Source: Zoogloeaceae bacterium (GTDB taxonomy: Bacteria > Pseudomonadota > Gammaproteobacteria > Burkholderiales > Rhodocyclaceae). From it: 59,646 nt of DNA. The stretch lies in assembly GCA_031277315.1 (NCBI GenBank), contig JAITMP010000007.1, positions 1 to 59,646 of the forward strand, written 5' to 3'. Made by a program: the position numbers and the translations under genes. Every line of letters starts with the position of its first letter. Within the stretch, counting starts at the first letter, position 1. Shown piece after piece: positions 30,207-49,189 of this stretch. Below the pieces are notes generated by a model. That model saw only the letters and a list, made by a program, of their open reading frames with translations, was not told the DNA's origin and ran no database searches.

Positions 30207-31346
30207 TCAGTTCACTCCGCCGTCGAGCGGCAGGGTCGGCGGCAGCGGCGGCGCGGTCATCAGCAGCGGCTGCGTCATGCTGAGGGATTCGAGGAAGGCG
30301 ATCAAATCGCTTTTCTCCGCTTCGCTGAGGCCGAGGGGTTTCAGCAGGGGCGATTTGTTCGGCACCGCGCCGCCGCCGGCGTCGAAGAAATCGACGACTT
30401 CGCGCAGCGTGGTGAAAACGCCGTTGTGCATGTAGGGCGCGGTGTACTTCAGTTCGCGCAGCGTCGGCGTGCGGAACTTGCCGATGTCATCCGGCGCGCG
30501 CGTGTGGTAATAGCGGCCAAGGTCTTCCTCCTGACCGCGATACAGGGCCGGCGGCGCGTCGCGCTGGCTGTTCTGCCAGCGCACGGCGATCTGCACCAGC
30601 GGATGCGAATCGTAGAGCGGCTGGCGCGGCACGCCGAGGGCGTGGAAGGTTTCGTCGGCGGCGAGCGCGCCGTGATGACACTGGATGCAGCCGGCCTTGC
30701 CCTGAAACAGCGCCAGACCACGGCGGGCGGATGCGGACAAGGCGGTCTGCTCGCCGGCGAGATAGCGGTCGAAAGGCACCTGGCGCGGGTCGGAAACCAG
30801 TGTGCGCTCGAAGGCGGCGATGGCTTCCCAGGCGTGATCGAGTTGCGGCCATTCGTCGCCGAAGACGCGGCGGAACAGCGCGACATATTCGGGCACGAAG
30901 CGCAGGCGCATCTCCACCATCGACGCCTTGCCGTTGCCTTCCACCGGCGCCTGCATGGCGGCGCGGGCCTGCGCCTCCAGACTGTCGAGCGTGCCGTCCC
31001 ACATCAGGCGGGCGCGGTAAGCGGCATTCAGCACCGTCGGATGATTGCGCCAGAGGCGGTGACCGGGATAGCCGCGCGCCAGCGGATCGTTGTGCGCCCA
31101 GCCGAGCCGCGGCACATGGCAGGAAGCGCAGGAAGTGGACGCATCCCCCGACAGACGCGGATCGAAGAACAGCATGCGGCCAAGACGCAGCTTGTCCTCG
31201 CTCATCGGGTTGCCGGCCGGCACCGGCACCGCCGGCAGGGACGCCAGCGACAACGAAGGCAACGATGGCGGCGTCAAGTCCGCCCCCGCGCCGGCGGTCA
31301 GCGCGGCAACGGCAACGAGTAAGGCAAGGCGCGGCAGGCGGCGCAT
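30207..31346 (-). CDS. MauG-like dihaem cytochrome c peroxidase-family protein (copy 1)
   Basis: This 379-residue periplasmic protein has a signal peptide and two haem sites, CASCH (C73, C76, H77) and CIQCH (C220, C223, H224), and the conserved PYMHNGVF segment near the C-terminus. MauG matures the TTQ cofactor of methylamine dehydrogenase; the CcpA-type relatives reduce peroxide. In this operon a TTQ-maturation role is plausible for one of two copies. ATG at 31346 shares bases with the upstream stop (TGATG). Confidence 0.85.
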   Translation of the reverse strand: MRRLPRLALLVAVAALTAGAGADLTPPSLPSLSLASLPAVPVPAGNPMSEDKLRLGRMLFFDPRLSGDASTSCASCHVPRLGWAHNDPLARGYPGHRLWRNHPTVLNAAYRARLMWDGTLDSLEAQARAAMQAPVEGNGKASMVEMRLRFVPEYVALFRRVFGDEWPQLDHAWEAIAAFERTLVSDPRQVPFDRYLAGEQTALSASARRGLALFQGKAGCIQCHHGALAADETFHALGVPRQPLYDSHPLVQIAVRWQNSQRDAPPALYRGQEEDLGRYYHTRAPDDIGKFRTPTLRELKYTAPYMHNGVFTTLREVVDFFDAGGGAVPNKSPLLKPLGLSEAEKSDLIAFLESLSMTQPLLMTAPPLPPTLPLDGGVN

Positions 31347-32446
31347 CACGGCGTCCTCTCAACGCTGCCGTAGTCGTACACCGGCGGCGGCGACATCAAT
31401 GCCGACGGCGGCAGCGGCGCGGACAAGGCGCGCAGAAAAGCCGCCAGCGCCTGCCGTTCGCGCGCGCTCAGCGCGAGCGGTTTCAATTCGCTGCCGGGGC
31501 CGCCGCCACGATCATGGAACGCAATCACTTCCTCAAGGCTGGCGAAGTAACCGTTGTGCATATAGGGGCCGGTGCGCGCGAGGCCGCGCAGCGGCGGCGT
31601 GACGAAACTGCCGCGCTCGGCCGGATTTTTGCTGACGGCATAAGCGCCGACATCGCCGCGCTCGTTCATCGGGTGCGGCAGTCCGCGCTCGGCGTTGTGG
31701 CGCAGCAGGCTGATGGCGCGCAGCGGCTCGCGCGTGATCGCCGGCGGCTCGGGCACGCCGAGGCGGTGCGGCTGGCCGTCGCTCAACAGCGGGCCATGAT
31801 GACAATCCACGCAGCCGGCGCGGCCGGTGAACAGCCGCAAGCCTTCCTCGGTCAGCGGCGGCAGCGCCGCCTCGCCGCGCAGGGCGCGGTCGACTGCGCT
31901 CTCGCCGAAATCGAGCGTCCGCAAATATTCGGCAATGGCCTCGAACGCCTGCTCGCCGCGCAGTTCGGCTTGCTCGCCGAACGCCCGCCGCCAGAGCGAG
32001 AAAAGGGGCGGAATCTGCCGGATGCGCTCGGCGATGATGCCCGCGTCGCCGTTCATGAACTGGGCGTCGAGCGCCATCTCGCGCGCCACGCCGGCCAGAT
32101 CGCCGCCGGCATGACGGCCATCCCACATCAGGCGCGGTCGCAGGCGCACCGAGAGCAGGCCGGGCGCGTTGCGGAAATGCTCGGTGCCGTTATAGCCGCG
32201 CGACAACGGCGCGCCATCGGCGAAGCCCTTTTCCGGCAGATGGCAACTGGCGCAACTGCGGCTGCCGTCGCCGGACAAGCGCGTCTCGAAAAACAGATGG
32301 CGGCCAAACTCGGCCAGCGCCGCGTTCACCCGCGCCGGCGGCGGCAAAGGCTGCAAGCGCGGGCCGTCGCCGGACGGCGCGGCGGCGCAGGTCAGCGCCG
32401 CGCTGGCCGCGACGCCAGCCAGCCAGCAACGCCAGCGCCGCTTCAT
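31346..32446 (-). CDS. MauG-like dihaem protein (copy 2)
   Basis: This 366-residue protein has two haem sites, CASCH (C65, C68, H69) and CVDCH (C212, C215, H216), and the PYMHNGYF segment. It is a diverged sister of the following gene, with the same order of domains. Its ATG overlaps the stop of the small cytochrome gene (ATGA). One of the two may be the TTQ-forming MauG, the other a peroxidase or an electron-transfer partner; this cannot be decided from sequence alone. Confidence 0.85.
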   Translation of the reverse strand: MKRRWRCWLAGVAASAALTCAAAPSGDGPRLQPLPPPARVNAALAEFGRHLFFETRLSGDGSRSCASCHLPEKGFADGAPLSRGYNGTEHFRNAPGLLSVRLRPRLMWDGRHAGGDLAGVAREMALDAQFMNGDAGIIAERIRQIPPLFSLWRRAFGEQAELRGEQAFEAIAEYLRTLDFGESAVDRALRGEAALPPLTEEGLRLFTGRAGCVDCHHGPLLSDGQPHRLGVPEPPAITREPLRAISLLRHNAERGLPHPMNERGDVGAYAVSKNPAERGSFVTPPLRGLARTGPYMHNGYFASLEEVIAFHDRGGGPGSELKPLALSARERQALAAFLRALSAPLPPSALMSPPPVYDYGSVERTP

Positions 32447-32814
32447 TTGACGTGCCTCTCCCCGCTGTAACGCACCAGCGGCGCCTGTTGCAGGATCACG
32501 CTGCAACTGCGCCGCCAGTCGAGAATTTCCTTCAGCAGGCGGGCGTCCTCCTCCGGCGTCAGCGGACGGGCGCCGGGCGCGGGCACGGTGATGAAAAACA
32601 CGCGGCCGGTATCGCTGTCGGCGAACTGTCCGCGCAGGGGTTGCAGGGGCTGCGCGGGTTGCTGCGACGCCTCGGGCGGCAGATGGCAGCCCATGCAGTT
32701 GAGAATGTAGAGCGTGGCGGCGGATTCGCCGGCCAAGGCCAAAGCGGGAAAAGCAACGCACAGCGCCGCCGCAATCCATTTCCTTGACACGGCGATCACG
32801 GCGGCGTCCGTCAC
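32443..32814 (-). CDS. Small monohaem cytochrome c
   Basis: This roughly 123-residue secreted protein has one haem site CMGCH (C40, C43, H44) and a helical segment EEDARLLKEILDWRR. The start is probably GTG at 32814, with GTG codons further in as alternatives. It may link the dehydrogenase or the MauG-like proteins to the respiratory chain. It overlaps the second mauG-like gene by 4 bp. Confidence 0.75.
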   Translation of the reverse strand: MTDAAVIAVSRKWIAAALCVAFPALALAGESAATLYILNCMGCHLPPEASQQPAQPLQPLRGQFADSDTGRVFFITVPAPGARPLTPEEDARLLKEILDWRRSCSVILQQAPLVRYSGERHVK

Positions 32815-32872
32815 GGCATGCCGGCGCCCGGCGGCAAAGCCGCCGGGGGGGCGAGGACGGGAAACACAACCG

Positions 32873-34303
32873 TCATTTCTTGATGCTGATGACCTGCGGC
32901 TGGGTGACGGACTTCAGACCGTCAAGACCGAACTCAACGCCGTAGCCCGAACCTTTGACGCCGCCGAACGGCACCATCGGATGAATCATGCCGTGCTGGT
33001 TGATCCACACCGTGCCGGCCTGGATGCGGCCCGCCACTTGTTTGGCTTTTTCGACATCGGACGACCACACCGAAGCGCCAAGACCGACATCGAGCCGGTT
33101 GGCGCTGGCGATGGCGTCCTCCACGTCGCGGTATTTGATGATCGGCAGCACCGGGCCGAACTGTTCCTCATCCACCAGCCGGTCGCCGTCTTTCAGCCCG
33201 GTCACCAGAGTGAGCGGATAGAAATAGCCGGCGCCGCCCTGCGGCTGACCGCCGCAAACGATGGTGCCGCCCTGCTGCTTAGCGCTCTCCACCAGCTTGA
33301 CGACCTTGTCATACTGCATCTTGTTCTGGATCGGCCCCATCACGACGCCGTCCTTGAGGCCGTCGCCCATCGGCATCGCTTCGGCGAGTTCCTTCAGCGC
33401 CTGCACGGTCGGCTCGAACAGGCTCTCCGGCACGTAAAGGCGCTTGGCGCAGGCGCAGGTCTGGCCCATGTTGATGAACGCGCCCCAGAACAGGCCCATC
33501 GCCATCGCCTTCGGGTCGGCGTCCGGCAGCATGATGGCGGCATCATTGCCGCCCAGTTCCAGCGTCGCCGGCACCAGATTCTTCGCCGCCGCCTGGGCGA
33601 TCTTGGCGCCGGTCGGGCCGGAGCCGGTGAACATCACCTTGTCGACGCCCGGATCGGACACCAGCCAGGAGCCGACTTCGCCCGTGCCGCTGACGGTGTT
33701 CACAACGCCCGGCGGCAGCACTTCGTTAATCAGGCGCACCAGTTCCAGCGTGCCGATGGAGGTGTATTCCGAAGGCTTCAGCACCACGGTGTTGCCGGCG
33801 CGGATCGAGGGCACGATCTGCCAGATGGCGATCAGGAGCGGCCAGTTCCACGGCGCGACGGCGGCAACCACGCCGTAGGGTTTTCTGTGCACTTCATCCC
33901 GCCGCGTGTCGTCTTCAAAAGCCACTTCGACCGGCAGGTCGAGGCTGGCCGGCACCTGCGTCCACACTTCGCAGCCCCAGATCTCGAAGCGCGCGCCCGG
34001 CACTTGGTCGGGGCCGACGCCGCCGAGCGGCTTGCCTTGCTCGCGCGTGACCCACTCCGCGAGATACGCGGCGTTGCGGTTGATGACTTCGGCCACTTTC
34101 ATCATCAGCGCCTTGCGCTCGGCGTCGGGCCGCGCCGCCCAGGCCGGCTGGGCGGCGCGCGCGGCGGCGACCGCCTCGGCCACCTGCCGCTGGCTGGAAA
34201 CGGGCACGCGCCCGATCGCCTCGCCGGTGGCGGGATTGATGGATTCAAAGGTTTTGTCAGAGCCAACGGCCTTGCCGTTGATGGTGTTCAGATAATCGTT
34301 CAT
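32873..34303 (-). CDS. NAD(P)-dependent aldehyde dehydrogenase
   Basis: This 476-residue ALDH has the active-site Cys in NMGQTCACAKR, the general base Glu in LELGGND and the cofactor region APWNWPLL. It would oxidise the aldehyde released by the amine dehydrogenase, for example phenylacetaldehyde from phenethylamine, to the acid. There is no signal peptide, so the aldehyde must enter the cytoplasm. It lies in the middle of the amine-dehydrogenase operon. Confidence 0.92.
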   Translation of the reverse strand: MNDYLNTINGKAVGSDKTFESINPATGEAIGRVPVSSQRQVAEAVAAARAAQPAWAARPDAERKALMMKVAEVINRNAAYLAEWVTREQGKPLGGVGPDQVPGARFEIWGCEVWTQVPASLDLPVEVAFEDDTRRDEVHRKPYGVVAAVAPWNWPLLIAIWQIVPSIRAGNTVVLKPSEYTSIGTLELVRLINEVLPPGVVNTVSGTGEVGSWLVSDPGVDKVMFTGSGPTGAKIAQAAAKNLVPATLELGGNDAAIMLPDADPKAMAMGLFWGAFINMGQTCACAKRLYVPESLFEPTVQALKELAEAMPMGDGLKDGVVMGPIQNKMQYDKVVKLVESAKQQGGTIVCGGQPQGGAGYFYPLTLVTGLKDGDRLVDEEQFGPVLPIIKYRDVEDAIASANRLDVGLGASVWSSDVEKAKQVAGRIQAGTVWINQHGMIHPMVPFGGVKGSGYGVEFGLDGLKSVTQPQVISIKK

Positions 34304-34359
34304 GGCAGACTCCCGGTGGTTGAAGGTTAAGAATCAAGAAGGAAACGGTCGGGTTTCCA

Positions 34360-35403
34360 TCACTGCGGCTCACGCGAACTGTTTTTCTGGTTTGCCCCGG
34401 CAGCGGCGACCACTCCGCGCTTCGAGTAGAGCAGGACGCCATCCTGGCCAGCCACGCCAGCCGCGCCAGCCACGCTGAGCGCGGTGAGGGACAAACTGTC
34501 GGCGCGCTGACTGGCCGTGAAGGTAACGCCGCGATCGCTGCTGCGCAACTGCACGCCGTCGAGACCGACCGCGAGCACTTCGTCGCCGGCTTCGGCAAGG
34601 CCGGTGATCGAACTCTTGGTGCCGCTCACGGCGGCATGCCAACTGCGTCCGTCGTCGACGCTGCGATAGATCGTGCCGCGCAGCCCGCCGACGATCAGCG
34701 CGCCGTCCTTGAGCGCGCGACCGACCCAGAAGGAACCGTTATAGCCGGTGCTCAGATAAGACCAGGTCGCGCCGCCGTCGTCCGAGCGCAGCACCGTGCC
34801 GCGCTCGGCGGCGATGAAAAGCGCGCCCTTGTCATTGGCGAACAGGGCAAACAGGTTGCGGTCGGCCTTGCCGCCTTCGGGCGGCGGCGGCAGCGTCACG
34901 GCAGTCCAGTTTTTGCCGCCGTCGGCGGTGGTGAGCAGAAGCGACCAGAGGCCCGCCGCGACGCCGTGTTCGGCATCGGAAAAGTAGACGGAAAACAGCG
35001 GGCGGTCATCGTCCATCTCGCTATGCTGGAGCGTCCAGTTTTCGCCGCCGTCGGCGGTATGCAGAATGACGCCGCCATGTCCAACCGCCCAGCCGTTCTG
35101 CGCGTCGGCGAAAGCGACCGCGGTCAGGGTGGCGCGCACCGGCACCGCCTGCGCCTGACGGAACGTGGCGCCCTCGTCGTCGGAGAGCACGATGACGCCG
35201 TGATCGCCGACGGCGACCAGACGCTGGCCGGCGCGGGCGGCGCCCAGCAGCATTTCGGCGCTGGCGTAAGCGCGCTTTTCCGCCGGCTGCAACAGCAGCG
35301 CCGCCGTGTCTTCCAGCGCCGTCCCTTGCGTATCGGCGGCGCCGGCGCAGGTCAGCGCGGCAAGGAGCAGGCAGAGCGGGAATCTTGTTGTCCGTCTTCG
35401 CAT
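34360..35403 (-). CDS. YCF48/BNR-repeat secreted protein
   Basis: This 347-residue secreted protein has a signal peptide and repeated blades such as GWAVGHGGVILHTADGGENW and GTVLRSDDGGATW, typical of the YCF48-like beta-propeller. YCF48 proteins help assemble large complexes; in clusters with DUF1302, DUF1329 and RND genes the role is unknown. It is 12 bp downstream of the RND gene. Confidence 0.85.
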   Translation of the reverse strand: MRRRTTRFPLCLLLAALTCAGAADTQGTALEDTAALLLQPAEKRAYASAEMLLGAARAGQRLVAVGDHGVIVLSDDEGATFRQAQAVPVRATLTAVAFADAQNGWAVGHGGVILHTADGGENWTLQHSEMDDDRPLFSVYFSDAEHGVAAGLWSLLLTTADGGKNWTAVTLPPPPEGGKADRNLFALFANDKGALFIAAERGTVLRSDDGGATWSYLSTGYNGSFWVGRALKDGALIVGGLRGTIYRSVDDGRSWHAAVSGTKSSITGLAEAGDEVLAVGLDGVQLRSSDRGVTFTASQRADSLSLTALSVAGAAGVAGQDGVLLYSKRGVVAAAGANQKNSSREPQ

Positions 35404-35415
35404 CGGCGCGCCTCC

Positions 35416-37800
35416 TCAGTGATCCAGAATGCCGGGCGCCCGCACCGGGCCGCGTCGCGGAAAGAGGCGTTCGAGCCACACGGCCAGCGCCGGCAGCGCC
35501 GTCATCGCCATGACCAGATTCACCATGAACATGAAGGCCAGCAGCTTGCCCATGTCGGCCTGGAACTTGAGATCGGAAAACGCCCAGGTCGCCACGCCCA
35601 CCGCCAGCGTGATGGCGGTAAAGATCGTCGCCATACCGACTTCCAGAATCGCATGTTCAAGCGCCTTGACGATGGGCTGGCCTTTGGCCAGATGCAATTG
35701 CAGGCGGTTGTAAATGTAGAAGGCGTAGTCGACGCCGATGCCCACCGCCAGCACCATCACCGGCAAGGTGGCGACGGTGAGGCCGATTTCCAGTTCCTTC
35801 ATGAACCAGTAGCCGATGAACGTGCCGACGGTGAGCGGCAGGCAGCAGGCGATCATGGCGCGGAAATCGCGGTAGACGATGAAAACCAGCAGGAGAATCG
35901 CCGCATACACATACAGCATCATCGGCAGCTCGCTTTTCTCCACTTCCTCATTCACGGCGGCAAGGACGCCGGCGTTGCCCGCGGCAAGCCGGATGCTGAC
36001 GCCTTCGAGCCGGTTGACGCTGCGGAAGCGCTTCACGGCGTCGATGACGCCGTTGATCGTCGTCGCCTTGTGATCGACGAGAAACAGGTGCGCGGCGACC
36101 ATGCTGCAATCCTTCCGCATGTAGCCGTGGATGCGTCCGATCTCGACCGACAACGCGGCATAGTTGGCGGGGTCGATCGGCACCACGTACATTTTCGGAT
36201 TGCCCTCATTGTAGCCTTCGTTATAGGTGCGCAGCATTTCCGAATAGGCGCTCACCGACAGCACGCCGGGCGCGTGGCGCATCTCGCCGACGAAGGCATC
36301 CTGATAAATGCCGACGGCCACCTTGTCGCAGGATTCCGGCGGCGCCTCGAACAACACCGTCAGCCAGTCGAGTCCGGTGTCATAGTTGGCGGCGATCGCC
36401 ACCGCGTCCCGGTTGAAGCGCGAATCGGCGCGCAATTCCGGCGCGCCCGGCTGCAGGGTGCCGACGACCCGATCCCGGCTTTGCCAGACCGAGAGGACGA
36501 AAATGATGCCGATGCCCGCCAGCACCACCGCCGCGTTGCGCGGTTCGGCCACGCGCGCCAGCGCGCGCAGCCAGGTGGCCCGCTTCTCGCGCTTCAGCAT
36601 CGCCTTGTCGGCGTACTCCCTGGTGAAGGTGCACAGGGAGGCGGCGAGCGGCAGCATGACGAGATTGGTGGCGATCTTGAAGGCCACGCCGATCGAGGCC
36701 GTGATGGCGAGTTCGCGCACCATCGGAATTGGAATCAGGATCAGCGTGATGAAAGACACGAAGGCCGTCACCAGCGCCAGCGTGCCCGGAATCAGCAGGC
36801 CGGTAAAGCTGGCGCGGGCGGCCTCATCGGTGCTGCGCCCGTGGGAAATTTCGCGCACGATGTAATTGATCTGCTGCACGCCGTGGGAGACGCCGATGGC
36901 GAAAACCAGAAACGGCACCAGCACGGCGAGCGGATCGAGGCCGTAGCCGAGCAGCTTCAGCGCGCCGAACTGCCACACCAGCGATGTGAGCGAGCACAGC
37001 ACCGGCAGCAAGGTCAGGCGCACCGAATGGCAGTACCAATACACCGCCAGCGCGGTGAGCAGCAGGGCGGCGAGGCAAAACTCGAACACGCCGGTGGCGC
37101 CATCGGCGATGTCGCCGATCTGCTTGGCGAAGCCGATGATCTGTATTTCAAAATCGGCGTCTTCGAGCTTGCGCAGCTTCTCTTCGAGAATATGGTTGTA
37201 GTCGACGTAATCAATCTTGGCGCCGTCGACGCCGAACTCGTTCAGCTCGGCAGTAATCATGGCGCTGGTCTGGTCGCGCCCGACCAGCGTGCCGACGAAG
37301 CCGCCCTGATTGGCGGCGCGCTGGATGGCGGCAATGATGTCGGCATCGAGTTGCTCCGGCGTCACCGTGCCGGGAATCACCGGGTCGGCGCGAAAGCCCT
37401 CCTCGGTGATCTCGTTGACGAAACTGTTCGGCGTCCACAGGGATTGCACGCCCAGCCGCGAGACATTCGGCAGAAACATCACGGCCTGCGTCGCGTCGTA
37501 GAGACGGGCCAGCCCCGCTTTGGTCCAGATGCTGCCCTTGCGCGCCTTGACGACGATGATGAGACGGTTCGCGCCCAGCACATCGCCACGGTATTTCTGG
37601 AACGTCTCGATGTACTCGTGGCCGATCGGCATCTGCTTCTCGAAGCCGGCGTCCATTTTCAGTTGCAGGGCGAAAAATCCCATGACGGCGGTGAACGCCA
37701 GCAGCGCCGCGAGCACCGGCTTGCGGAAGCGGAACAGGACATGCTCCGCGCCGCGAATGATTCGCGTCAGGAAGTGATCGACGTCGCCGATGATGTTCAT
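35416..37800 (-). CDS. RND/MMPL-family transporter
   Basis: This 794-residue protein has about 12 transmembrane helices in two halves with large periplasmic loops, and SSD/MMPL features such as VGVDYAFYIYNRL and GVSHGVQQINYIV. It would move hydrophobic molecules across or within the envelope. It is part of the DUF1302-DUF1329-YCF48 group; the substrate is unknown. A strong hairpin lies upstream at 37873-37907. Confidence 0.9.
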   Translation of the reverse strand: MNIIGDVDHFLTRIIRGAEHVLFRFRKPVLAALLAFTAVMGFFALQLKMDAGFEKQMPIGHEYIETFQKYRGDVLGANRLIIVVKARKGSIWTKAGLARLYDATQAVMFLPNVSRLGVQSLWTPNSFVNEITEEGFRADPVIPGTVTPEQLDADIIAAIQRAANQGGFVGTLVGRDQTSAMITAELNEFGVDGAKIDYVDYNHILEEKLRKLEDADFEIQIIGFAKQIGDIADGATGVFEFCLAALLLTALAVYWYCHSVRLTLLPVLCSLTSLVWQFGALKLLGYGLDPLAVLVPFLVFAIGVSHGVQQINYIVREISHGRSTDEAARASFTGLLIPGTLALVTAFVSFITLILIPIPMVRELAITASIGVAFKIATNLVMLPLAASLCTFTREYADKAMLKREKRATWLRALARVAEPRNAAVVLAGIGIIFVLSVWQSRDRVVGTLQPGAPELRADSRFNRDAVAIAANYDTGLDWLTVLFEAPPESCDKVAVGIYQDAFVGEMRHAPGVLSVSAYSEMLRTYNEGYNEGNPKMYVVPIDPANYAALSVEIGRIHGYMRKDCSMVAAHLFLVDHKATTINGVIDAVKRFRSVNRLEGVSIRLAAGNAGVLAAVNEEVEKSELPMMLYVYAAILLLVFIVYRDFRAMIACCLPLTVGTFIGYWFMKELEIGLTVATLPVMVLAVGIGVDYAFYIYNRLQLHLAKGQPIVKALEHAILEVGMATIFTAITLAVGVATWAFSDLKFQADMGKLLAFMFMVNLVMAMTALPALAVWLERLFPRRGPVRAPGILDH

Positions 37801-37872
37801 GGATACCGTTCAGACGGCAGAATGGAAAACTGCGCGGGAAACCGCAGCCGGGGATTTTATGGAAATCGGCCT

Positions 37873-37907
37873 CACCCCTGCGGCAGGCGTTCGCTGCCGC
37901 AGGGGTG
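37873..37907 (-). other. Strong intercistronic hairpin downstream of DUF1302
   Basis: A perfect 14-bp stem (CACCCCTGCGGCAG and its complement) with a 7-nt loop begins 6 bp after the DUF1302 stop. No T-run follows on the minus strand, so it may stabilise the upstream mRNA or weaken read-through into the RND gene rather than end transcription. Confidence 0.7.
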
Positions 37908-37913
37908 TCATGC

Positions 37914-39632
37914 TCAGAAGTTGCGGGTTATGTAAGCGCCGACGAAATCGCGATCCTTGAGCGGCTGGTCGAGGATGCTCTTGCCGCCCCAGAACTTGGC
38001 GTAGTTCAGGCCGACGACCCATTTCGCCGGGTTCTGGGTGAACGTGAGGATGAAGTTGGCCGACTTCGCCCCCTCCATGAACAGCGCCATGGCGTTCGGC
38101 GTGCGGCCCTTGACGGCGTGGAAGAAGTAGATTTCCGGCGTCACCTGCCAGCCGGGAATGATCTTGCCGTCATACGTCCAGCTAAAGTCGAAGTTGTAGC
38201 CCCACGAGTTCTTGGTGCCGGCGGACACCGGCGCGCCCGTGGTGAAGCTGACATCGTTGGCGTTGAGGTAACCCCAGCCCCAGTAGCCGGCCGCCACCGG
38301 CACGCCGTCATACGACTTCTTCATGTTCGGGTAACGTATCGCGACCGCTTCCGCCATGAAGGTTGCCGTGTCGGCGCCGCCGAGCAGATTCAGAATGCCG
38401 CCGTAGTCGCCCGGCGTCATGCTGAGCAGGCCGGTGAGGTGAAACTGGTACTTTTTCTCCTCGGCGTAGCACTTGCCGCTGCGATAGCAGGGGTTGCCGT
38501 CAGTGTTGTTGCTCCATAGCGTACTGAGGGCCACCGCATCCCTCGGCCGGTAGGACAATTCAGCGCCGATGGCCCAGTCGCCCAGCCCGAAGTTGGTGCT
38601 AAGACCGTAAAGGGTCAGGTCTTCAATGTATTTGAATCGGGCGAGGCCGGTCGACAGGTCATAGCTGAGGTTCGGCGACTTGTCGTGATAGCGCATGGCA
38701 TAGAAACCGAAGTTGGTCTGGGAGCCGGGCGGCTGGTAGCGCAGCGAAACGCCGTACTGGCCGTGTTCCTTGACCGAGTGCGAGTGTGTCTTGGCGCCGA
38801 AAGACCCGTAGTGGTTGGCGCCCGGGCCGATCGTGGCGGTCGACCAGTAGCTGCCGAGCGGCGGGAAATAGTTGGCATTCCAGTCGGCTTGCACATAGGC
38901 TTCCAGGTTGAAACCGCTGCCCAGCCCCAGCGCAAGACTGCCGATGACGCCCGGCAGCATCACTTCCTTCAACTGTGTGCCGGGCTGCGACAGCCGCATG
39001 ATGTCCATGGCATTGGTCTGGTTGATGCCGCCGGGCAGGAACAGGCTCTCGCCCCAACTGATGACCTGATTGCCGACGCGGACGCGCGCCTGCTCGCCAT
39101 TCACCTCGAATTCCTTGCTGACCCAGAAGTCGAGCAGGCGCGCCTTGAAGCTCAGTTCGCTGTTGGCGCTGCCGGGATAATTCGAGCCGGTTTCATTGCC
39201 GCCGCTGATATAGCCCGAATCATGGGTGGCCGAAAAATCCTTGATCCAGTTTACGCGGCCAAAGAATTTCCAGCTATCCGGGAACTTGAGCAGCAGTTCG
39301 TGCGTGCCTTTCAGATAGGTCGTGAAAACATCGCCTTTCTTGTAATTCAGGTTGCCTTGATCGTTTACGAAAGAATACGCGTCGAGGCAGCCGTCCGGCG
39401 CCTTGCCGGCCGGCGTCGCCGACGAAGGCGCGCCGCCGACCGTTCCGATCACGGTGCCGCAGCCCGGCGACTTGGTGCGCACGCCGATGCCGAAGGTGAG
39501 GGAAGTGTCAAAGCTGCCGCTGATGCCGTTCTCGGTGTCGAAAGTGACGGCGGTGGCCGGACCCGCGCCGGCCAGGGTCGCCGCCGCGGCAATCGCCGTG
39601 ACGAACATCCCGTTTCTGGTCGTCCGTTTCAT
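37914..39632 (-). CDS. DUF1302 outer-membrane beta-barrel protein
   Basis: This 572-residue protein has a signal peptide ending ATA and many amphipathic beta-strands, with DTENGISGSFDTSLTFGI at the start of the mature part, as in DUF1302. The C-terminal strand ends in Phe (YITRNF), a typical outer-membrane signature. It could be a channel for hydrophobic compounds. ATG at 39632 is preferred to 39638 because GGAG is 8 bp before it. Confidence 0.85.
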   Translation of the reverse strand: MKRTTRNGMFVTAIAAAATLAGAGPATAVTFDTENGISGSFDTSLTFGIGVRTKSPGCGTVIGTVGGAPSSATPAGKAPDGCLDAYSFVNDQGNLNYKKGDVFTTYLKGTHELLLKFPDSWKFFGRVNWIKDFSATHDSGYISGGNETGSNYPGSANSELSFKARLLDFWVSKEFEVNGEQARVRVGNQVISWGESLFLPGGINQTNAMDIMRLSQPGTQLKEVMLPGVIGSLALGLGSGFNLEAYVQADWNANYFPPLGSYWSTATIGPGANHYGSFGAKTHSHSVKEHGQYGVSLRYQPPGSQTNFGFYAMRYHDKSPNLSYDLSTGLARFKYIEDLTLYGLSTNFGLGDWAIGAELSYRPRDAVALSTLWSNNTDGNPCYRSGKCYAEEKKYQFHLTGLLSMTPGDYGGILNLLGGADTATFMAEAVAIRYPNMKKSYDGVPVAAGYWGWGYLNANDVSFTTGAPVSAGTKNSWGYNFDFSWTYDGKIIPGWQVTPEIYFFHAVKGRTPNAMALFMEGAKSANFILTFTQNPAKWVVGLNYAKFWGGKSILDQPLKDRDFVGAYITRNF

Positions 39633-39666
39633 GGTCATGTCTCCTTTGGTGTTTTATCGTGCCCGA

Positions 39667-41052
39667 TCAGCGTTCGCTGATTGAACGCAGGGTTTCGGCG
39701 CTGTAGAAGCTGGGCTTGAAGCGGACCCCTTCCGGTTCCGTCACCCAGCGCATGTCCTTGCCGCCGCCGATCGGATTCATGTCGAACACGTAGCGTCCCT
39801 CGGCCAGGTTGTACTGGGCGAACGAAATCGCGTCGCACGTTCCCGTTTCATAGGACGGAATCAGATAGCCCTCGCGGAACTTGAACAGCTTGCCCTGACC
39901 GTCGTAGTCGTCGGCCGCCATCACGCTCCAGCTATCCTCGTCGAGATAGAACGTGCGCTTCGGCGCGACGTGCCGCATGCCGGCCTTGACGCTCGCCTCG
40001 ATCACCCAGACGCGATGCAGTTCGTAGCGGCGCGCCGCCGGATCGAGCGCGTCGTCGTGGGCGATGTCCTTGAACTTGGCGGAGAAGTCGTAGGTGCCGA
40101 AGGAGTGGTAGCCGACGTACATCTCTTTCTTGCCGACGATCTTCCAGTCGAAGCGGTCGATGGTGCCGTTGAAGACCATCGGCTCGTCGAGCGTGTACTG
40201 GTTCTCCAGACCGATCTGGGGCGAGTCATAGGAGTAGGAAGGCATGCGGCGCACGCGGCGCTGGCCGGGGAAGTAATAGAACGTCTCGCTGCCGGGCTGA
40301 TTCAGGAAAAACGTCACCGTCAGCGCCTGCCCCGCCATGGCGGGCGGCGAATCGTACTGGAACAGGATGTAATACTCGACCTGGGGCAGCTTGCTCAGGC
40401 TGTTGGCGCCCTTCGCGCCCCAAGGATAGAAGATGGTCAGTTCCTGACCGGCGATAATCCATTCCGTGCCGCCCTGGCGCGGCGAGACGGCGGTGTTGAT
40501 GTGCGGGAACAGAATGCCGACGCCGCGATAACGCATCTTGGCGTTCCACATGGCTTCGGTGCCGCTGGACGGGATCGGAAACGGAAAGCCCGGCACGGTC
40601 GCCTCTTTCAGGCTCCAGCCGTCGTCTCCCAACTGCGCCTTGCCGACGTTCTTCTTCGTGTTATCGGCGACGAAATCCGGCACGCCGCAATCGCGGTGGC
40701 TGGGATACACGTCCATCCGGTAGCCCTTGATCTGCTTGATGGTGGCGATCTGGCCCGCCGAGAGCTTGTCGGCATATTTATCCACGTTGGAAGCGTCGAT
40801 GGAGAAGAGCGGCTTTTCGTCCTTGTGCTTCCAGTAATCGGCCCGCTTCTTGCCGTGCGACCAGCCCGGCAGGGGCGCTTCGCCGCCGCTCCAGGCCGGA
40901 ATGCTGCCGTCCTTGTTGCCCGCTTTTTCCGCGCCGGATGGCGTCAGATCCTTGCCCAGCCGGGCGGCATCCTGCTCCGACGCAGCGGCCGCAACGCCGA
41001 TGGCGCACGCCAGACTGATGGCGATGGCGGTTTTCCTTGTAATCGGTTTCAT
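39667..41052 (-). CDS. DUF1329 periplasmic/outer-membrane protein
   Basis: This 461-residue protein has a signal peptide and the DUF1329 features FPHINTAVSPRQGGTEW and YDSPQIGLENQY. The family has a LolA/LppX-like hydrophobic-cavity fold and is usually paired with DUF1302. AAAGGAGGAAAACGG precedes the ATG at 41052. It may carry a hydrophobic ligand between the barrel and other components. Confidence 0.88.
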   Translation of the reverse strand: MKPITRKTAIAISLACAIGVAAAASEQDAARLGKDLTPSGAEKAGNKDGSIPAWSGGEAPLPGWSHGKKRADYWKHKDEKPLFSIDASNVDKYADKLSAGQIATIKQIKGYRMDVYPSHRDCGVPDFVADNTKKNVGKAQLGDDGWSLKEATVPGFPFPIPSSGTEAMWNAKMRYRGVGILFPHINTAVSPRQGGTEWIIAGQELTIFYPWGAKGANSLSKLPQVEYYILFQYDSPPAMAGQALTVTFFLNQPGSETFYYFPGQRRVRRMPSYSYDSPQIGLENQYTLDEPMVFNGTIDRFDWKIVGKKEMYVGYHSFGTYDFSAKFKDIAHDDALDPAARRYELHRVWVIEASVKAGMRHVAPKRTFYLDEDSWSVMAADDYDGQGKLFKFREGYLIPSYETGTCDAISFAQYNLAEGRYVFDMNPIGGGKDMRWVTEPEGVRFKPSFYSAETLRSISER

Positions 41053-41092
41053 CCGTTTTCCTCCTTTGAAAGCGTGTGTGTTTTCCTGTCTT

Positions 41093-41539
41093 TTACTTTC
41101 CGCGCATACGGCGGACTTCGTGCGGCGGCAGCGCCCGCTGGCGGGCGGCGGCCACATCCTGCTGCGTGACGCGCTGCTCCGCCGGCACGCCGTTCAACTC
41201 GCCCAGAACGTAGCCGACGACAGCGACGATCTCCTCGTCGGAGAGCGCGACAAAAGTCGGCATGGCGCTGTTGAAAGGCTCGCCGCCGGAGACGATCGGG
41301 CCCATCATGCCGCTTACCACCAACTGCGCCAGGTAAGCGCGGCCGGATTCATTCTTCGCGTGTTCGGTCAGATTGTTCGCCAGCCGCGGCGCGAGGCCGG
41401 GCGCGCCTTCACCCTGCTTCTGGTGGCAGACCACGCAATGCTGCTCGAACAGCGCGGCGCCGGGATCTTCCGCGCAAACCCCGCCCGCCGCGACAAGCGC
41501 GAGCGGCATGGCGAGGCCGAGCGCCGGCGCGCATCTCAA
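41093..41539 (-). CDS. Monohaem cytochrome c, probable electron acceptor of the amine dehydrogenase
   Basis: This 148-residue secreted cytochrome has one haem site CVVCH (C35, C38, H39) and Met residues in VVSGMMGP and NSAMPTF as possible axial ligands. A TTG at 41539 is the best start: GGAG lies 8 bp before it and it overlaps the aauA stop as TTGA. A later ATG at 41509 would leave a weak signal peptide. It probably accepts electrons from the TTQ enzyme, replacing azurin or amicyanin. Confidence 0.82.
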   Translation of the reverse strand: MRCAPALGLAMPLALVAAGGVCAEDPGAALFEQHCVVCHQKQGEGAPGLAPRLANNLTEHAKNESGRAYLAQLVVSGMMGPIVSGGEPFNSAMPTFVALSDEEIVAVVGYVLGELNGVPAEQRVTQQDVAAARQRALPPHEVRRMRGK

Positions 41540-42054
41540 GACGGCTGCTCCGCCAGGCCGACCAGCACCGCCGTCGTGCAATGGAACATGGTGCTGTTGG
41601 TGTTGCCCATGCACCAGTTGATGTCGTTATGCAGCCCCATGCGGTAGCCGGGGCGCTCGCCGAGATTGGTGTTGCACATGCAGCGCCCACAAGCCGTCTT
41701 GCCGCAGCAGTCGTTGTAGCTGATGAGGTAGTCCTTGCCGTCCTGCGGATTGCGGCAGGTGCCGATCCAGGCCACCTTCGACGGCTCGGTTCCCGGCGGG
41801 CAGGTAGACATCGTGCCGCCGCAGCAGGAACAGAGGAAGCCGTCCACCGCGCAGTAGCGCCAGTAGTCGCACTGATACACATCCGGCTCTTTCTTTCCGC
41901 CGGCGGCGCGCGCGATGCGGTCGAAGGGCAGCACCGGCAGCGCGAACGCAGCGCCGACCAGCAGCCGGCCGATGCCGGCCAGGGCGCTGCGGCGCGACAC
42001 ACGCTGCGCCGCGCGGCGGCTCGAATGCTCGAAGAAATCATCCAGCCATTTCAT
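41536..42054 (-). CDS. aauA: Aralkylamine dehydrogenase light chain (TTQ subunit)
   Basis: This 172-residue periplasmic subunit has a twin-arginine-type signal (SRRSALAGI) and a Cys-rich mature part with CDYWRYCAVDGFLCSCCGGT. The two tryptophans that form TTQ are W96 (in KVAWIGTC) and W147 (in DINWCMG), 51 residues apart as in W57/W108 of the Paracoccus enzyme. Pattern details (DYWRYCAVDGFLCSCCGG, DCCGKTACGRC) are closer to aralkylamine dehydrogenase than to methylamine dehydrogenase. Substrate range is inferred. Confidence 0.93.
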   Translation of the reverse strand: MKWLDDFFEHSSRRAAQRVSRRSALAGIGRLLVGAAFALPVLPFDRIARAAGGKKEPDVYQCDYWRYCAVDGFLCSCCGGTMSTCPPGTEPSKVAWIGTCRNPQDGKDYLISYNDCCGKTACGRCMCNTNLGERPGYRMGLHNDINWCMGNTNSTMFHCTTAVLVGLAEQPS

Positions 42055-42659
42055 GATCTCGTTCCCTGTTCAACTTGGCCGGTGACGAATTCTTGCACCG
42101 AGGCCACGTTCATCTCTTTCGCGGTAAACAGGCTTTCCAGTTGCTCCCGCGAATTCACCAAGCCCTTGGCGCGCACGCGCCCGGCTTCGTCGAGCAGCAC
42201 CGCGTAGGGCAGCTTGCCGACCCGGAAGGCCATGCCCAACTCGGCCGACAGCAGGTACGGAAAACTTTCAATGCCAACGCGACGACGGAACGCTTCATGC
42301 TCGTCCGCCTCGCCATCGCTGGCGAAAACGATGCGCAGCCAGGCCGATTCAACGGCGGCGATCGACTTCAGGATCGGCAACAGTTTCTTGCACACCGGGC
42401 AGGTGGGCGACAGAAAAAACAGCAACTGGCTGCGCTCCGTCGCCGCGCCGATGGCGATGACGCCGCCACCCAATGTGGGCAGATCGAAACGCGGCGCCGC
42501 TTCGCCGACAGCCGGCCCGGAGTCGATCATCAGCGCCCCCATCGGCGCCACGCGCTCGTAGAGAATGCCGACTTGCCGCGCAAGCGCGAAAACCGCCACC
42601 AGCAGCGCCAACACGACGAGCCAGAGAAGCGCGTTGGAAATCACGAGTGCGTCGATCAT
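42051..42659 (-). CDS. aauD: AauD/MauD thioredoxin-like protein
   Basis: This 202-residue protein has an N-terminal membrane anchor (residues 8-28) and a thioredoxin-like domain with CPVC. MauD is needed for disulfide formation in the light chain, which has six bridges. It overlaps aauA by 4 bp. Confidence 0.92.
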   Translation of the reverse strand: MIDALVISNALLWLVVLALLVAVFALARQVGILYERVAPMGALMIDSGPAVGEAAPRFDLPTLGGGVIAIGAATERSQLLFFLSPTCPVCKKLLPILKSIAAVESAWLRIVFASDGEADEHEAFRRRVGIESFPYLLSAELGMAFRVGKLPYAVLLDEAGRVRAKGLVNSREQLESLFTAKEMNVASVQEFVTGQVEQGTRS

Positions 42660-42663
42660 GCGT

Positions 42664-43197
42664 TCAACCCCGCAGTTTCAGCAGGCGGGGGCGATTCGCC
42701 ATCAGTTGATTCGCCGCCGCATACAATCCATACAAAGCCAGCGTCCCCGCCACCAGCGTGAGGCCGTCAAGCCAAACCCGTTCACGCGGCGCTTCCGCCG
42801 CCAGCGACAGCGCCGCCGTTGCCGCCAGCACGACGTTGCGCAGCACCAGCCCCCAGGAGAGGTGCTGTCCGCCCTCCGGTCCGCCGCAACCGCAGTCGAT
42901 GTCGCGGCGACCGCGCAGCAAATTGATCGCCACCGCCGTGGTGAAAACAAACAGCAGCAACAGCGTCAAACCGGCGCCGACCGGCCGTGTCGCCAGCGGC
43001 AAAAGCAGCAGGCCGGCGGCGATTTCCGCCGTCAGCAGACTCCAGGCAACGGCAGCGGCCCAGGTCACCGGCAACAGGCGGTATTGCTCGATGGCCATGA
43101 CGAAGCCATCGACATCGCGCAACTTCTGCCAGGCCCCGCCGAGAAACACGATCGCCAGCAGCGCGGCGAACATGTGCGGGAGAATCGGATCGAGCAT
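42664..43197 (-). CDS. aauE: AauE/MauE membrane protein
   Basis: This 177-residue inner-membrane protein has about four transmembrane helices and a CGCGG motif (DIDCGCGGPEGGQ). MauE is required, with MauD, for folding of the light chain, probably passing reducing or oxidising equivalents across the membrane. Its start overlaps the aauB stop (TGATG). Confidence 0.9.
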   Translation of the reverse strand: MLDPILPHMFAALLAIVFLGGAWQKLRDVDGFVMAIEQYRLLPVTWAAAVAWSLLTAEIAAGLLLLPLATRPVGAGLTLLLLFVFTTAVAINLLRGRRDIDCGCGGPEGGQHLSWGLVLRNVVLAATAALSLAAEAPRERVWLDGLTLVAGTLALYGLYAAANQLMANRPRLLKLRG

Positions 43198-44360
43198 CAG
43201 TGCAACTCCATCACCGTGGTGGCTTCGCCGATTGATCCCATGCGCTTGAGAAAGCGCGGCTTGTCGCCGGCGTCGAACACCGCCAGCCCCATGTCCATGC
43301 CGTCGATGGCGAACAGTTTAGGCTGGTCGATCTGGCTCACCGCGATGGCGATCGCGTTGTGGCCGGGCAGCCGCGCGATGCGCTTTTTCTTCTCGATGTC
43401 GAAAATCCAGATCTCCCGCGCCGGATTCTTGTGGCTGCCTTCTTCGCCGCCGGCATGCACGCCGACGAACAGGCGGCCCGTCTTGCGATGCACCGCCAGC
43501 AATTGATAGCCGCCCGGACGCCAGCCCTTGCGCGCCTCGGCGGCGCTGGCGATGGACCACGGCGCGTCGACCTGCGGCGTCTCGCCGGAGAGATCGGCGG
43601 CATACACCAACCCCTTGTAGGAAACGAAGTAATGCCGGTCGCCGATGGGGTCGGTGTGCACGAACACCGGATCTTCATCGGGATGGAAAAAGCGCGCGCT
43701 GCGGGCGCGCGATTTGGCGTTGCCGTTGTCGTCGACGACGATGGTTTGCAACGCGCCGTCGCCGCACAGCGTGGAGAAGCGGCTGCCGTCAGTCTCGGAA
43801 GGAATCACGATCCAGCAGCCCGGCGTGGAAATTTCGGCGGCGAACTTGCGCGCCTTGAGATCGACCACCGTCACCGAAGAAGCAGGCGTGGCGTTCTGCA
43901 CGAACAGCCAGCGCCCGTCGGAGGAAGGCCGCACCAGCCCCTTGTAGGGCAGGGCTTGCGCGCGCCGCGTCGGGATGATGATCTCGCCCTTGTGTTCGAG
44001 CGTCTGCGTGTCGTGAATATCCACCACGTCGATGCGCTCGCCGCGCGACAGGCGCGTGTAGTAAGTGGTGGCGACGTAGAGTTCCTTGCGGTCGAGCGAC
44101 AGCGCGGCGTTGCCGGCGTAGCCGGTCGAGATCAGGCCCAGATATTTCAGCTCGTCGCCGTCGATGACGTGCAGCTTGCCGTCCACGATGTGGTTGGTGG
44201 AGAAATCGGAAATGTAGAGACGATGCGGCGTCGGCTCCGGCAGCCGGCCAACGCTGAGCGTCTCGTATCTCGGCTCGGCAAAGGCAACCGGCGCCAGACC
44301 GCAGACGACGGCAGACGCGGCGGCAAACACGAATACGACCACGCGAATAAAGCGCGACAC
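43197..44360 (-). CDS. aauB: Aralkylamine dehydrogenase heavy chain
   Basis: This 387-residue periplasmic subunit has a signal peptide ending AFA and seven-blade beta-propeller repeats (LYISDF, ELYVATTYY, WLFVQNA, LFVGVHAGGEEGSHKNPA). The last segment is typical of heavy chains of TTQ amine dehydrogenases. The start is GTG at 44360, with GGAGG 7 bp before it. It is the first gene of the operon and divergent from the AraC-family regulator. Confidence 0.92.
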   Translation of the reverse strand: MSRFIRVVVFVFAAASAVVCGLAPVAFAEPRYETLSVGRLPEPTPHRLYISDFSTNHIVDGKLHVIDGDELKYLGLISTGYAGNAALSLDRKELYVATTYYTRLSRGERIDVVDIHDTQTLEHKGEIIIPTRRAQALPYKGLVRPSSDGRWLFVQNATPASSVTVVDLKARKFAAEISTPGCWIVIPSETDGSRFSTLCGDGALQTIVVDDNGNAKSRARSARFFHPDEDPVFVHTDPIGDRHYFVSYKGLVYAADLSGETPQVDAPWSIASAAEARKGWRPGGYQLLAVHRKTGRLFVGVHAGGEEGSHKNPAREIWIFDIEKKKRIARLPGHNAIAIAVSQIDQPKLFAIDGMDMGLAVFDAGDKPRFLKRMGSIGEATTVMELH

Positions 44361-44460
44361 GATGATTCCTCCTCCTTCTCCTTGTGCGCCGCAATATTTT
44401 TTAGCAAGGCTGCGGCATGCGACAGGGAGCGGATTTTAAGCACGGTTTCCGGCAGGCCGT

Positions 44461-44478
44461 TATCCAAAATCGGCAAGC
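44461..44478. promoter_or_regulatory. Shared operator copy 1, aauB/regulator intergenic region
   Basis: TATCCAAAATCGGCAAGC is repeated exactly at 49057-49074. It lies 101 bp upstream of the aauB start codon and is followed by GCAAAAAA two bases on. The site is likely to bind the divergent AraC-family regulator. Confidence 0.7.
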
Positions 44479-44599
44479 CTGCAAAAAAGACCGCGAAAAA
44501 CCGGGCCGCGCTTTTTGTTGGCCCCTCCTACTATTTTCCTTGCAATCAAAGCGACTTTCGGCTTTACTGTGTATCGTCATCAGCGGATATCTGCCATCC

Positions 44600-45628
44600 A
44601 TGACCGACACGCACGCGCCCTTTTCCGATTTATCCGACGCGCTCGACGAGCAGGCGCTCTACTCGCTGGTGCGCCGCGAGTCGCGCGACGCCGACGAGCA
44701 GGCCGCCTGCCTGCGCGACTGGGATCAAATCTACGAGCAGCTCTCGCCGGGAGAATTCGAGGGCCGCTTCATGGAAGTCTGGTTTCGCGGCATTCAGCTT
44801 TTCCGCGAAGTCGCCAACCAGTCGATGCACGAAGCGGGCACCATGCGGGCCGGCGACCGCGTGCTCGGCGTGCCGGTGGCGATGGAAGGGCAGGGCTATT
44901 TCTGCGGCCGGCCGATTGCGCCCGACGCCATCATGACGATGCGCGGCGGCGACGAAATGGATTTCCGCGCGCCCAAGCACTTCGATATCGTCGCCGTCTC
45001 GATTCCGATCGACATACTGACGCGCTACGCGAAGGAGATCGAGCACCGCGACATCGAGCAGGAACTACAGCATGTCGCCGTGGTGCAGGCAAGCAAGGCG
45101 GCGGTCAACGAATTCCGCGGCTTCCTGCTCACCGCCCTCGAATCGGTTTCGCGCACGCCGGCCATGTTGCAGTATCCGGCGATGCAGAAGGGGCTGGAGC
45201 ATGCGCTGCTCTCCAGCGTGGTGAAGGCCGTTGACCGCAGCACGAATGAAGCCGCCCGCTCGACCGCCTCGCCGACCGCCCGTCACGCCATCGTCTCGCG
45301 CGCGCAGGAATACATGCGCACGCACGTCGAGGAACCGCTCACCGTGGAGGATCTGTGCCGCGTGCTGGGCGTGAGCCGGCGCACGCTGCAATACAGTTTT
45401 CAGGAAGTGCTGCAATTGAATCCCGTCAGCTATCTGCGCGCGATACGCCTGAACGGCGCGCGCCGGATGCTCAAATCGGCCGACCCGCAACGGCATTCGG
45501 TGCAGGACATCGCCGCCCGCTGGGGCTTCTGGCATCTCTCCCATTTCGCCAACGACTATCGCCGCATGTTCGGCGAACTGCCCTCCGAAACCCTGCGCAA
45601 CACCACCTATCCGGCGCAGCAGGTCTGA
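44600..45628 (+). CDS. AraC-family regulator, EutR-like
   Basis: This 342-residue regulator has an N-terminal ligand-binding domain and a C-terminal double HTH (LTVEDLCRVLGVSRRTLQYS and SVQDIAARWGFWHLSHF) close to EutR. It probably activates the aau operon in response to an amine. ATG at 44600 starts the conserved part; the frame is open upstream without support. It is divergent from aauB and convergent with the HAD gene. Confidence 0.88.
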   Translation: MTDTHAPFSDLSDALDEQALYSLVRRESRDADEQAACLRDWDQIYEQLSPGEFEGRFMEVWFRGIQLFREVANQSMHEAGTMRAGDRVLGVPVAMEGQGYFCGRPIAPDAIMTMRGGDEMDFRAPKHFDIVAVSIPIDILTRYAKEIEHRDIEQELQHVAVVQASKAAVNEFRGFLLTALESVSRTPAMLQYPAMQKGLEHALLSSVVKAVDRSTNEAARSTASPTARHAIVSRAQEYMRTHVEEPLTVEDLCRVLGVSRRTLQYSFQEVLQLNPVSYLRAIRLNGARRMLKSADPQRHSVQDIAARWGFWHLSHFANDYRRMFGELPSETLRNTTYPAQQV

Positions 45629-49074: not shown

Positions 49075-49189
49075 GCAAAAAAAATCGGCCGCTTCATGTC
49101 ATTTGCCGCAAAATCATTGCATCCACAACTTTCGAGTGATACAACACCTCGCCGCATTCCTGCGGCGAAACCGGTCAAAAGGCCATACC

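Follow-up and report, generated by a model that had tools for sequence, protein, structure and literature searches.

An aromatic amine dehydrogenase operon with its own putative Ame-type envelope transporter in a Zoogloeaceae bacterium

Organization of the aau operon and its envelope module

The window analyzed here is the whole of a 59,646-nucleotide stretch from a Zoogloeaceae bacterium (GenBank assembly GCA_031277315.1, contig JAITMP010000007.1; contig 38 in a 2.4 Mb assembly with 50 contigs). Between positions 44360 and 30207 of its minus strand, an aromatic amine dehydrogenase (AADH) cluster adjoins a four-gene envelope module. The order is aauB, aauE, aauD, aauA, a cytochrome c gene, DUF1329, DUF1302, a resistance-nodulation-division (RND)/MMPL transporter, a YCF48-like protein, an aldehyde dehydrogenase (ALDH), a small cytochrome and two diheme MauG/CCP-like genes, followed by gmk. 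The intergenic gaps from aauB to gmk are, in order, −1, 4, −4, about −5 (with a putative cytochrome c start), 40, 28, 113, 12, 56, 58, −4, −4 and 16 bases. An earlier note on this DNA had described a single run of these genes from 30207 to 44360, and all that it named are present with gaps of at most 113 bases, as are the tryptophans W96 and W147 in AauA. Searches of the operon for sigma-70-type promoters (0 found; mean of 2.1 in shuffles) and for terminator-like sites (22 found; 14.0 ± 4.2 in shuffles) gave no useful signal.

AADH oxidizes aryl-alkylamines in the periplasm to an aldehyde and ammonium. The heavy-chain gene, aauB (43197–44360, GTG start), matches Pfam Me-amine-dh_H at 168.7 bits, and its best PDB match is the AADH heavy chain 2h3x with an E value of 6.5e-86, compared with 8.1e-40 for the best methylamine dehydrogenase (MADH). 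The light-chain gene, aauA (41536–42054), matches Me-amine-dh_L at 181.8 bits and the AADH light chain 2agl with an E value of 3.8e-61, compared with 1.8e-43 for MADH. Both chains fall short of the MADH equivalog cut-offs (155.5 versus 196.85 for the light chain and 180.4 versus 454.45 for the heavy chain). W96 (SKVAWIGTC) and W147 (NDINWCMGN) align with tryptophans in 2agl and are presumably the residues that form tryptophan tryptophylquinone (TTQ). Maturation genes of mauE/mauD type sit between the two subunit genes: aauE (42664–43197, a membrane protein matching Pfam MauE at 103.2 bits) and aauD (42051–42659, a thioredoxin-type thiol-disulfide protein scoring 214.8 with NCBIfam TIGR02661 MauD, cut-off 188.6); MauE has a role in light-chain maturation. 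The cytochrome c gene (41093–41539), whose putative TTG start overlaps the aauA stop, encodes the probable electron acceptor and matches Pfam Cytochrom_C at 44.1 bits on the longer open reading frame (ORF) to 41614. These sequence matches support the assignment, made in the earlier note, of an AADH-type TTQ dehydrogenase, for which an aryl-alkylamine substrate is predicted.

The envelope module begins with DUF1329 (39667–41052, Pfam DUF1329 421.9 bits), the start of which was corrected from 41157 to the ATG at 41052 behind AAAGGAGG. Its predicted fold is LolA-like and the protein is probably periplasmic. The DUF1302 beta barrel (37914–39638, Pfam DUF1302 440.3 bits) is probably located in the outer membrane; its predicted model (pLDDT 75.4) resembles Occ/OprD barrels and ties with OpdK and BenF-like porin, a resemblance in fold among the barrel families listed for comparison. 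A PDB sequence search returned nothing meaningful for DUF1329 or DUF1302 and weak RND matches for the RND/MMPL transporter (35416–37800, Pfam MMPL 71.3 bits). The best NCBIfam match of the latter is TIGR00921 (HAE3) at 132.8, below the cut-off of 351.9, and the protein scores weakly with models or chains named after carriers of hopanoids, sterols or trehalose mycolates. Its H306 (segment AIGVSHG) and D691 (segment GVDYAF) are kept in 135 and 134 of 135 aligned rows (the window being counted twice). The C-terminal residue, His794, is kept in 132 of the same rows, which is unusual conservation for a C-terminus. The module ends with a YCF48-like beta-propeller protein (34360–35403, Pfam PSII_BNR 97.7 bits). 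A second DUF1302/DUF1329/YCF48/RND set in the same genome (L143, G000:C41:23001-43000) has another gene order and lies outside the transporter clade described below.

The ALDH (32873–34303, Pfam Aldedh 466.9 bits) has no N-terminal signal peptide evident by eye, consistent with the cytoplasmic location proposed for it earlier, and scores 374.6 with the StyD phenylacetaldehyde dehydrogenase model, below the cut-off of 850. The small c-type cytochrome (32443–32814) contains one CxxCH motif and has no Pfam match at E 0.001; its stop overlaps the start, at 32446, of diheme protein 2 (31346–32446, Pfam CCP_MauG 116.1 bits on 31346–32470). Diheme protein 1 (30207–31349) matches the same family at 159.4 bits. 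The description of this pair as MauG-like is correct at the level of the CCP_MauG family. The MauG label itself is weak, and the case for protein 1 as a MauG TTQ maturase is weakened by its score of 233.8 with the NCBIfam TIGR03791 MauG equivalog, which misses the cut-off of 443.85. In MauG, the distal heme ligand is a tyrosine. With the distal position placed only through an alignment with MbnH, protein 2 has His where MbnH has Tyr, protein 1 carries Phe at that place (assigned from the PYMHNG motif common to both), and the counterpart of protein 2 at locus L201 has Tyr. The MauG-like genes of the window may still serve TTQ formation. Among 122 loci searched through ORFs of at least 200 residues, many of them without enough flank for these genes, MauG-like matches above 180 bits were found at nine aau loci (L005, L008, L009, L010, L012, L015, L029, L056 and L216); further cases are L201, where the contig starts inside the module, L260 (61 bits) and, later, L266 and L268. 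The small cytochrome and the diheme pair form a recurring block in L029, L056, L201, L216, L266 and L268, which in L056 lies upstream of aau.

The gene that follows the last MauG-like gene, gmk (guanylate kinase), was named by eye from sequence similarity. At the other end, an AraC-type regulator (44417–45628, plus strand, Pfam HTH_18 89.5 bits) is divergent from aauB, and its relatives were found near modules at loci of aau, quinohemoprotein amine dehydrogenase (QHNDH), copper amine oxidase and EutB. A HAD-type hydrolase and a UPF0261 protein (45629–47592, minus strand) separate the aau operon from a class III aminotransferase (47589–48956, minus strand), a second ALDH (49103–50632, plus strand) and an amino-acid permease (50659–52041, plus strand). 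Given these last three genes, the window looks like a wider amine-catabolism island.

Pairing of aau genes with one clade of transporters

Gene calls on GC-rich loci were rough, and the counts in our comparison with other genomes are therefore based on six-frame ORFs. Scanning a single genome from each species with AauA gave 412 relatives, of which the top 80 were retained, which biases this set to close kin. An AauB ORF of at least 330 residues is present in 76 of the 80, and these loci carry the module or part of it in 55 cases, lack it over at least 6 kb after aauB in 9 and are cut off in 12. The view that the two sets of genes belong together is thus clearly borne out by co-occurrence in other genomes, the lack of which had been part of the earlier note's grounds for refutation, and the impression that their pairing had no parallel is not: the same gene run recurs in other genomes, many of them Betaproteobacteria, and because it recurs we regard it as more than chance. 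An order-level sample of 399 genomes gave 24 AauA-family matches, of which 22 were taken as real (G194 and G208 being weak fragments). The module adjoins aau in six of these 22 genomes (the window, L122, L126, L128, L129 and L133), and another, G352, has three DUF1302 matches, all on contigs other than that of aau. These counts are lower bounds, with at most 11 light-chain and 3 DUF1302 candidates scored per genome (one unscored each in G118 and G342). The module is missing at four aau loci, two from Achromobacter and two from family f4 (L073, L078, L130 and L132).

Anchoring on the DUF1302 or RND protein instead removes the aau bias. DUF1302 places above 130 bits numbered 59 in the 399 genomes, and 53 were read (left out were G364 twice, G333, G030 and G132 twice). 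A tree was built from 95 RND proteins, the majority taken from the aau-anchored loci. It places all 57 aau-linked proteins in a single clade of 65 members with an SH-aLRT support of 100 and a long stem; the other eight members have no aau gene in view, and the 30 RND proteins from other DUF1302 loci lie outside. Gene order follows the same division, being mostly DUF1329-DUF1302-RND-YCF48 at clade loci and mostly DUF1302-DUF1329-YCF48-RND at those outside. The clade itself contains two versions of the module, I (that of the window) and II. In seven genomes a pair of aau loci occurs, each locus with a different version (L017/L051, L019/L064, L031/L079, L034/L070, L035/L082, L043/L067 and L048/L062), as in Zoogloea dura (L019, L064) and Dechloromonas CZR5 (L079, L031), as if two amine systems of different substrates stood side by side.

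Modules of this clade also adjoin amine enzymes of other families. We found beside them a copper amine oxidase (L169; with ALDH and AraC genes in L169, L239 and L240), the ethanolamine ammonia-lyase EutBC (L182, with a permease, and L242), flavin mononucleotide (FMN) dehydrogenases of trimethylamine type (two with a DmmA-like gene in L184, one in L231), flavin amine oxidases (L203, L206 and L204) and QHNDH alpha with a radical SAM gene (L212; matches also in L166, L220 and L221), and a Cupriavidus plasmid carries the module at a distance of about 5 kb from a TTQ cluster. In the order sample, an amine oxidase or lyase is present within 8 kb at 10 of 14 clade loci (aauB at six; QHNDH, copper amine oxidase, EutB and the trimethylamine dehydrogenase type at one each) and at 0 of 30 controls; an ALDH is present at 7 of 14 and 2 of 30, respectively. 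For this count, nine of 39 control loci had been excluded for want of an RND match above 100 bits. Fisher tests on the amine oxidases and lyases (4e-7 for the order sample, 2e-4 for the family samples) are given no weight here, as the reference enzymes came from clade loci and the rows are related. Ten control-locus genes scanned with Pfam included three proteins of fatty-acid beta-oxidation type and no amine enzyme. One of two class-level loci has an amine oxidase or lyase. The family samples, in which membership of the clade was taken as an E value of at most 1e-200 to the window RND protein, outside the tree with controls, gave 89 RND places: 7 were already in the set, 62 were counted, 6 were added later and 14 lie outside the count. 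The six later loci comprise four with aau genes, one with a weak class III aminotransferase match (108 bits) and one with an amidase and an ALDH.

Of eleven plasmid places of the clade that were opened, five have annotation with a readable neighborhood beyond the module (L190, L192, L193, L194 and L195) and six are without a gene table; among the five, a TTQ cluster is found only at L192. Plasmid members L194 and L196–L200 have RidA-like genes, and L194 also a phytanoyl-CoA dioxygenase, which perhaps points to imine or amine chemistry. At L172, L250, L252 and L258 an Ala_racemase_N-type protein, an ALDH, an ALO-type flavoprotein and a major facilitator superfamily permease precede the module, an arrangement that an aldehyde-releasing aldolase would fit. 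Permeases are present at several clade loci (L182, L172, L190, L235 and L244), and inner-membrane uptake can therefore be provided elsewhere.

Exchange of transporter and enzyme

A one-contig genome of the window's genus, L216, has the same operon from gmk to araC. Protein identity with the window is 74–92% along the flank (gmk 84, MauG-like proteins 88 and 82, small cytochrome 82, ALDH 92, cytochrome c 74%) and similar on the aau side (AauA 88, AauD 89, AauE 81, AauB 82, AraC 81%), and drops to 42% for YCF48, 57% for RND, 34% for DUF1302 and 46% for DUF1329; the L216 set is of version II. In keeping with this pattern, the window AauB nests with version-II relatives (L004, L216 and L003) and the window RND protein with L201, L005 and L006. 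The simplest reading of these sequences is that an in-place exchange took the four envelope genes together. Its edge is sharp at ALDH and less so at DUF1329, whose first 180 residues are 50–83% identical per 30-residue block. Such an exchange of four genes suggests which parts form one machine.

The converse replacement is seen between L219, which has aau, and L221 and L220, which have QHNDH. Here the RND proteins are 90 and 90% identical, DUF1302 75 and 74%, DUF1329 82 and 82% and YCF48 66 and 62%, with ALDH at 89% in L221. Judged from these identities, the enzyme has been replaced beside a conserved transporter, and transporter and enzyme swap independently. In a 130-row RND tree (FastTree, midpoint rooting), the starred branches force at least 12 AADH and at least 3 QHNDH label changes, numbers that are inflated by contigs ending early and labeled "other". 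On the branch that contains version II, AADH or QHNDH is the label of 45 of 50 rows, many of which come from aau-anchored loci. On the AauB tree, starred branches force at least 6 changes for version II and at least 8 for version I, again inflated by short contigs. The module is an exchangeable accessory of the dehydrogenase, and the complete uptake–oxidation system envisaged in the earlier note is not supported.

Proposed function and comparison with known systems

A functional link between the aau dehydrogenase and the envelope module is well supported. The reading of that link which we prefer, and to which we give an even chance, is that this AADH operon has its own four-part Ame-type envelope transporter, which would clear aldehyde or excess amine. 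The AADH would oxidize aryl-alkylamines in the periplasm and pass electrons to the adjacent cytochrome c, and the ALDH would oxidize the resulting aldehyde in the cytoplasm. With RND in the inner membrane, the DUF1329 carrier and YCF48 in the periplasm and DUF1302 in the outer membrane, the module would act as one proton-driven unit, most likely clearing the membrane and periplasm of reactive aldehyde, or of excess amine, during the activity of the oxidases; the aldehyde is more likely to be the transported compound than the amine. What the partner enzymes of the clade have in common is amine chemistry yielding an aldehyde, not one location or one amine. We favor clearance because these partners yield aldehydes, because the loci have permeases of their own and because AmeABCD of Castellaniella defragrans has been interpreted as an exporter.

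Several observations weigh against this reading. Fifteen of the 22 order-sample genomes with the light-chain family have no DUF1302 match above 100 bits among the candidates scored (at most three per genome), and the dehydrogenase therefore appears not to need the module. An amine oxidase or lyase lies within 8 kb at only 20 of the 62 family-sample loci (rising to 29 with transaminase, deiminase and aldolase-like genes included); 33 show none of the enzymes sought, some at contig ends and others with no visible amine link, and clade modules also lie by unlinked flagellar (L174), cobalamin/TonB (L222) and aconitase (L233) genes. Since clade loci supplied the reference enzymes, the comparison with controls is tilted toward the clade. 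The DUF1302 model is similar to channels of the Occ/OprD type, a family of uptake porins, and the direction and substrate proposed here are predictions. For AmeABCD, Nile Red efflux followed in real time hardly differed between wild type and mutant (PMC6394551). In Pseudomonas putida, growth on Tween 20 requires PP_0765/PP_0766 together with two partners, which fits uptake (PMC10866462).

The earlier note had favored uptake of a bulky or hydrophobic amine. In its present form, this explanation holds that the DUF1302 barrel and its partners bring a poorly porin-permeant amine to the periplasm for AADH. The tie of the barrel model with OpdK and BenF-like porin and the Tween 20 phenotype would suit it, as would the periplasmic location of the TTQ, cysteine tryptophylquinone (CTQ) and copper enzymes. 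However, an inner-membrane RND protein would not be needed to reach a periplasmic enzyme, members of the clade are also neighbors of EutBC and of FMN amine dehydrogenases, families of cytoplasmic enzymes, and of ordinary permeases, AADH occurs without the module in other genomes, and AmeABCD is described as an exporter; we consider uptake doubtful. It is unlikely that the module instead moves lipid or another membrane component to repair the envelope under amine or aldehyde stress, with the small molecule itself not carried. The LolA-like DUF1329 model, the weak RND scores with hopanoid, sterol and trehalose-mycolate carriers and the three beta-oxidation type proteins among ten control-locus genes are consistent with such traffic, but it leaves unexplained why one RND clade lies beside amine enzymes of unrelated families. 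A neighborhood formed by chance or hitch-hiking, with no joint function, would account for the clade loci with no amine enzyme in view and for AADH without the module. The repeated pairing on the RND and AauB trees and the presence of aauB at 6 of 14 clade loci versus 0 of 30 controls (Fisher p 0.0004, in a comparison fixed by the finding itself and with rows that are not independent) make it very improbable.

If the preferred reading of clearance is extended to the clade, one cassette would have been recruited repeatedly beside TTQ, CTQ, copper-topaquinone and flavin oxidases and amine lyases, since aldehydes must leave the envelope. We put forward this dedicated amine/aldehyde transporter family tentatively, as an idea somewhat more apt to fail than to hold. 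If true, it would tie DUF1302 and DUF1329 to a defined chemistry. Both are families of unknown function, for which two printed hints point to monoterpene export (PMC6394551) and Tween 20 use (PMC10866462). A clade that tracks enzymes turning amines into aldehydes across unrelated families provides a definite class of substrates to examine in genera such as Azoarcus, Zoogloea and Dechloromonas. It also bears on how cells tolerate the oxidation of amines in the periplasm, where reactive aldehydes are set free outside the cytoplasm.

The closest known enzyme is the AADH of structures 2agl and 2h3x, which we take to be the product of the aauBEDA cluster of Alcaligenes faecalis. Both window subunits are nearer to it than to MADH, and the order aauB-E-D-A then cytochrome c is also that of A. 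faecalis; unlike that cluster, the window continues with DUF1329, DUF1302, RND, YCF48, ALDH and the MauG-like genes. QHNDH, with its CTQ cofactor, is an unrelated enzyme, yet the QHNDH alpha-subunit match in L166, L212, L220 and L221 has a transporter of this clade and a radical SAM gene next to it. For the module, the nearest parallel is AmeABCD, which consists of AmeA (DUF1302), AmeB (DUF1329), AmeC (YCF48-like, COG4447) and AmeD (HAE3 RND), encoded in the order DUF1302-DUF1329-YCF48-RND in a monoterpene island; a deletion mutant tolerates monoterpenes less well and, when uncoupled, accumulates more Nile Red (PMC6394551). The window has the same four families adjacent and beside catabolic genes, but in the order DUF1329-DUF1302-RND-YCF48 and with amine genes in place of monoterpene genes. 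The likeness to AmeD is one of gene content and description, and the 30 RND proteins from other loci, mostly of Ame order, are on other branches. The P. putida set joins PP_0765/PP_0766 to PP_2018/PP_2019 (DUF1302, DUF1329, a periplasmic protein and an RND-type efflux protein) through linked phenotypes in a proposed transport system; unlike the window, it is split over two places by locus number, has a Tween 20 phenotype and is described, in the section concerned, with no mention of an amine enzyme (PMC10866462). A literature search lacking most subscription papers and all bioRxiv preprints found no published pairing of AADH or QHNDH with a DUF1302-type module. AADH and the Ame-type transporter are both of known kinds. 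What is new, as far as the literature was searched, is the tie between AADH and the module, its separate clade with a gene order of its own, its presence beside amine enzymes of unrelated families and its exchange as a block.

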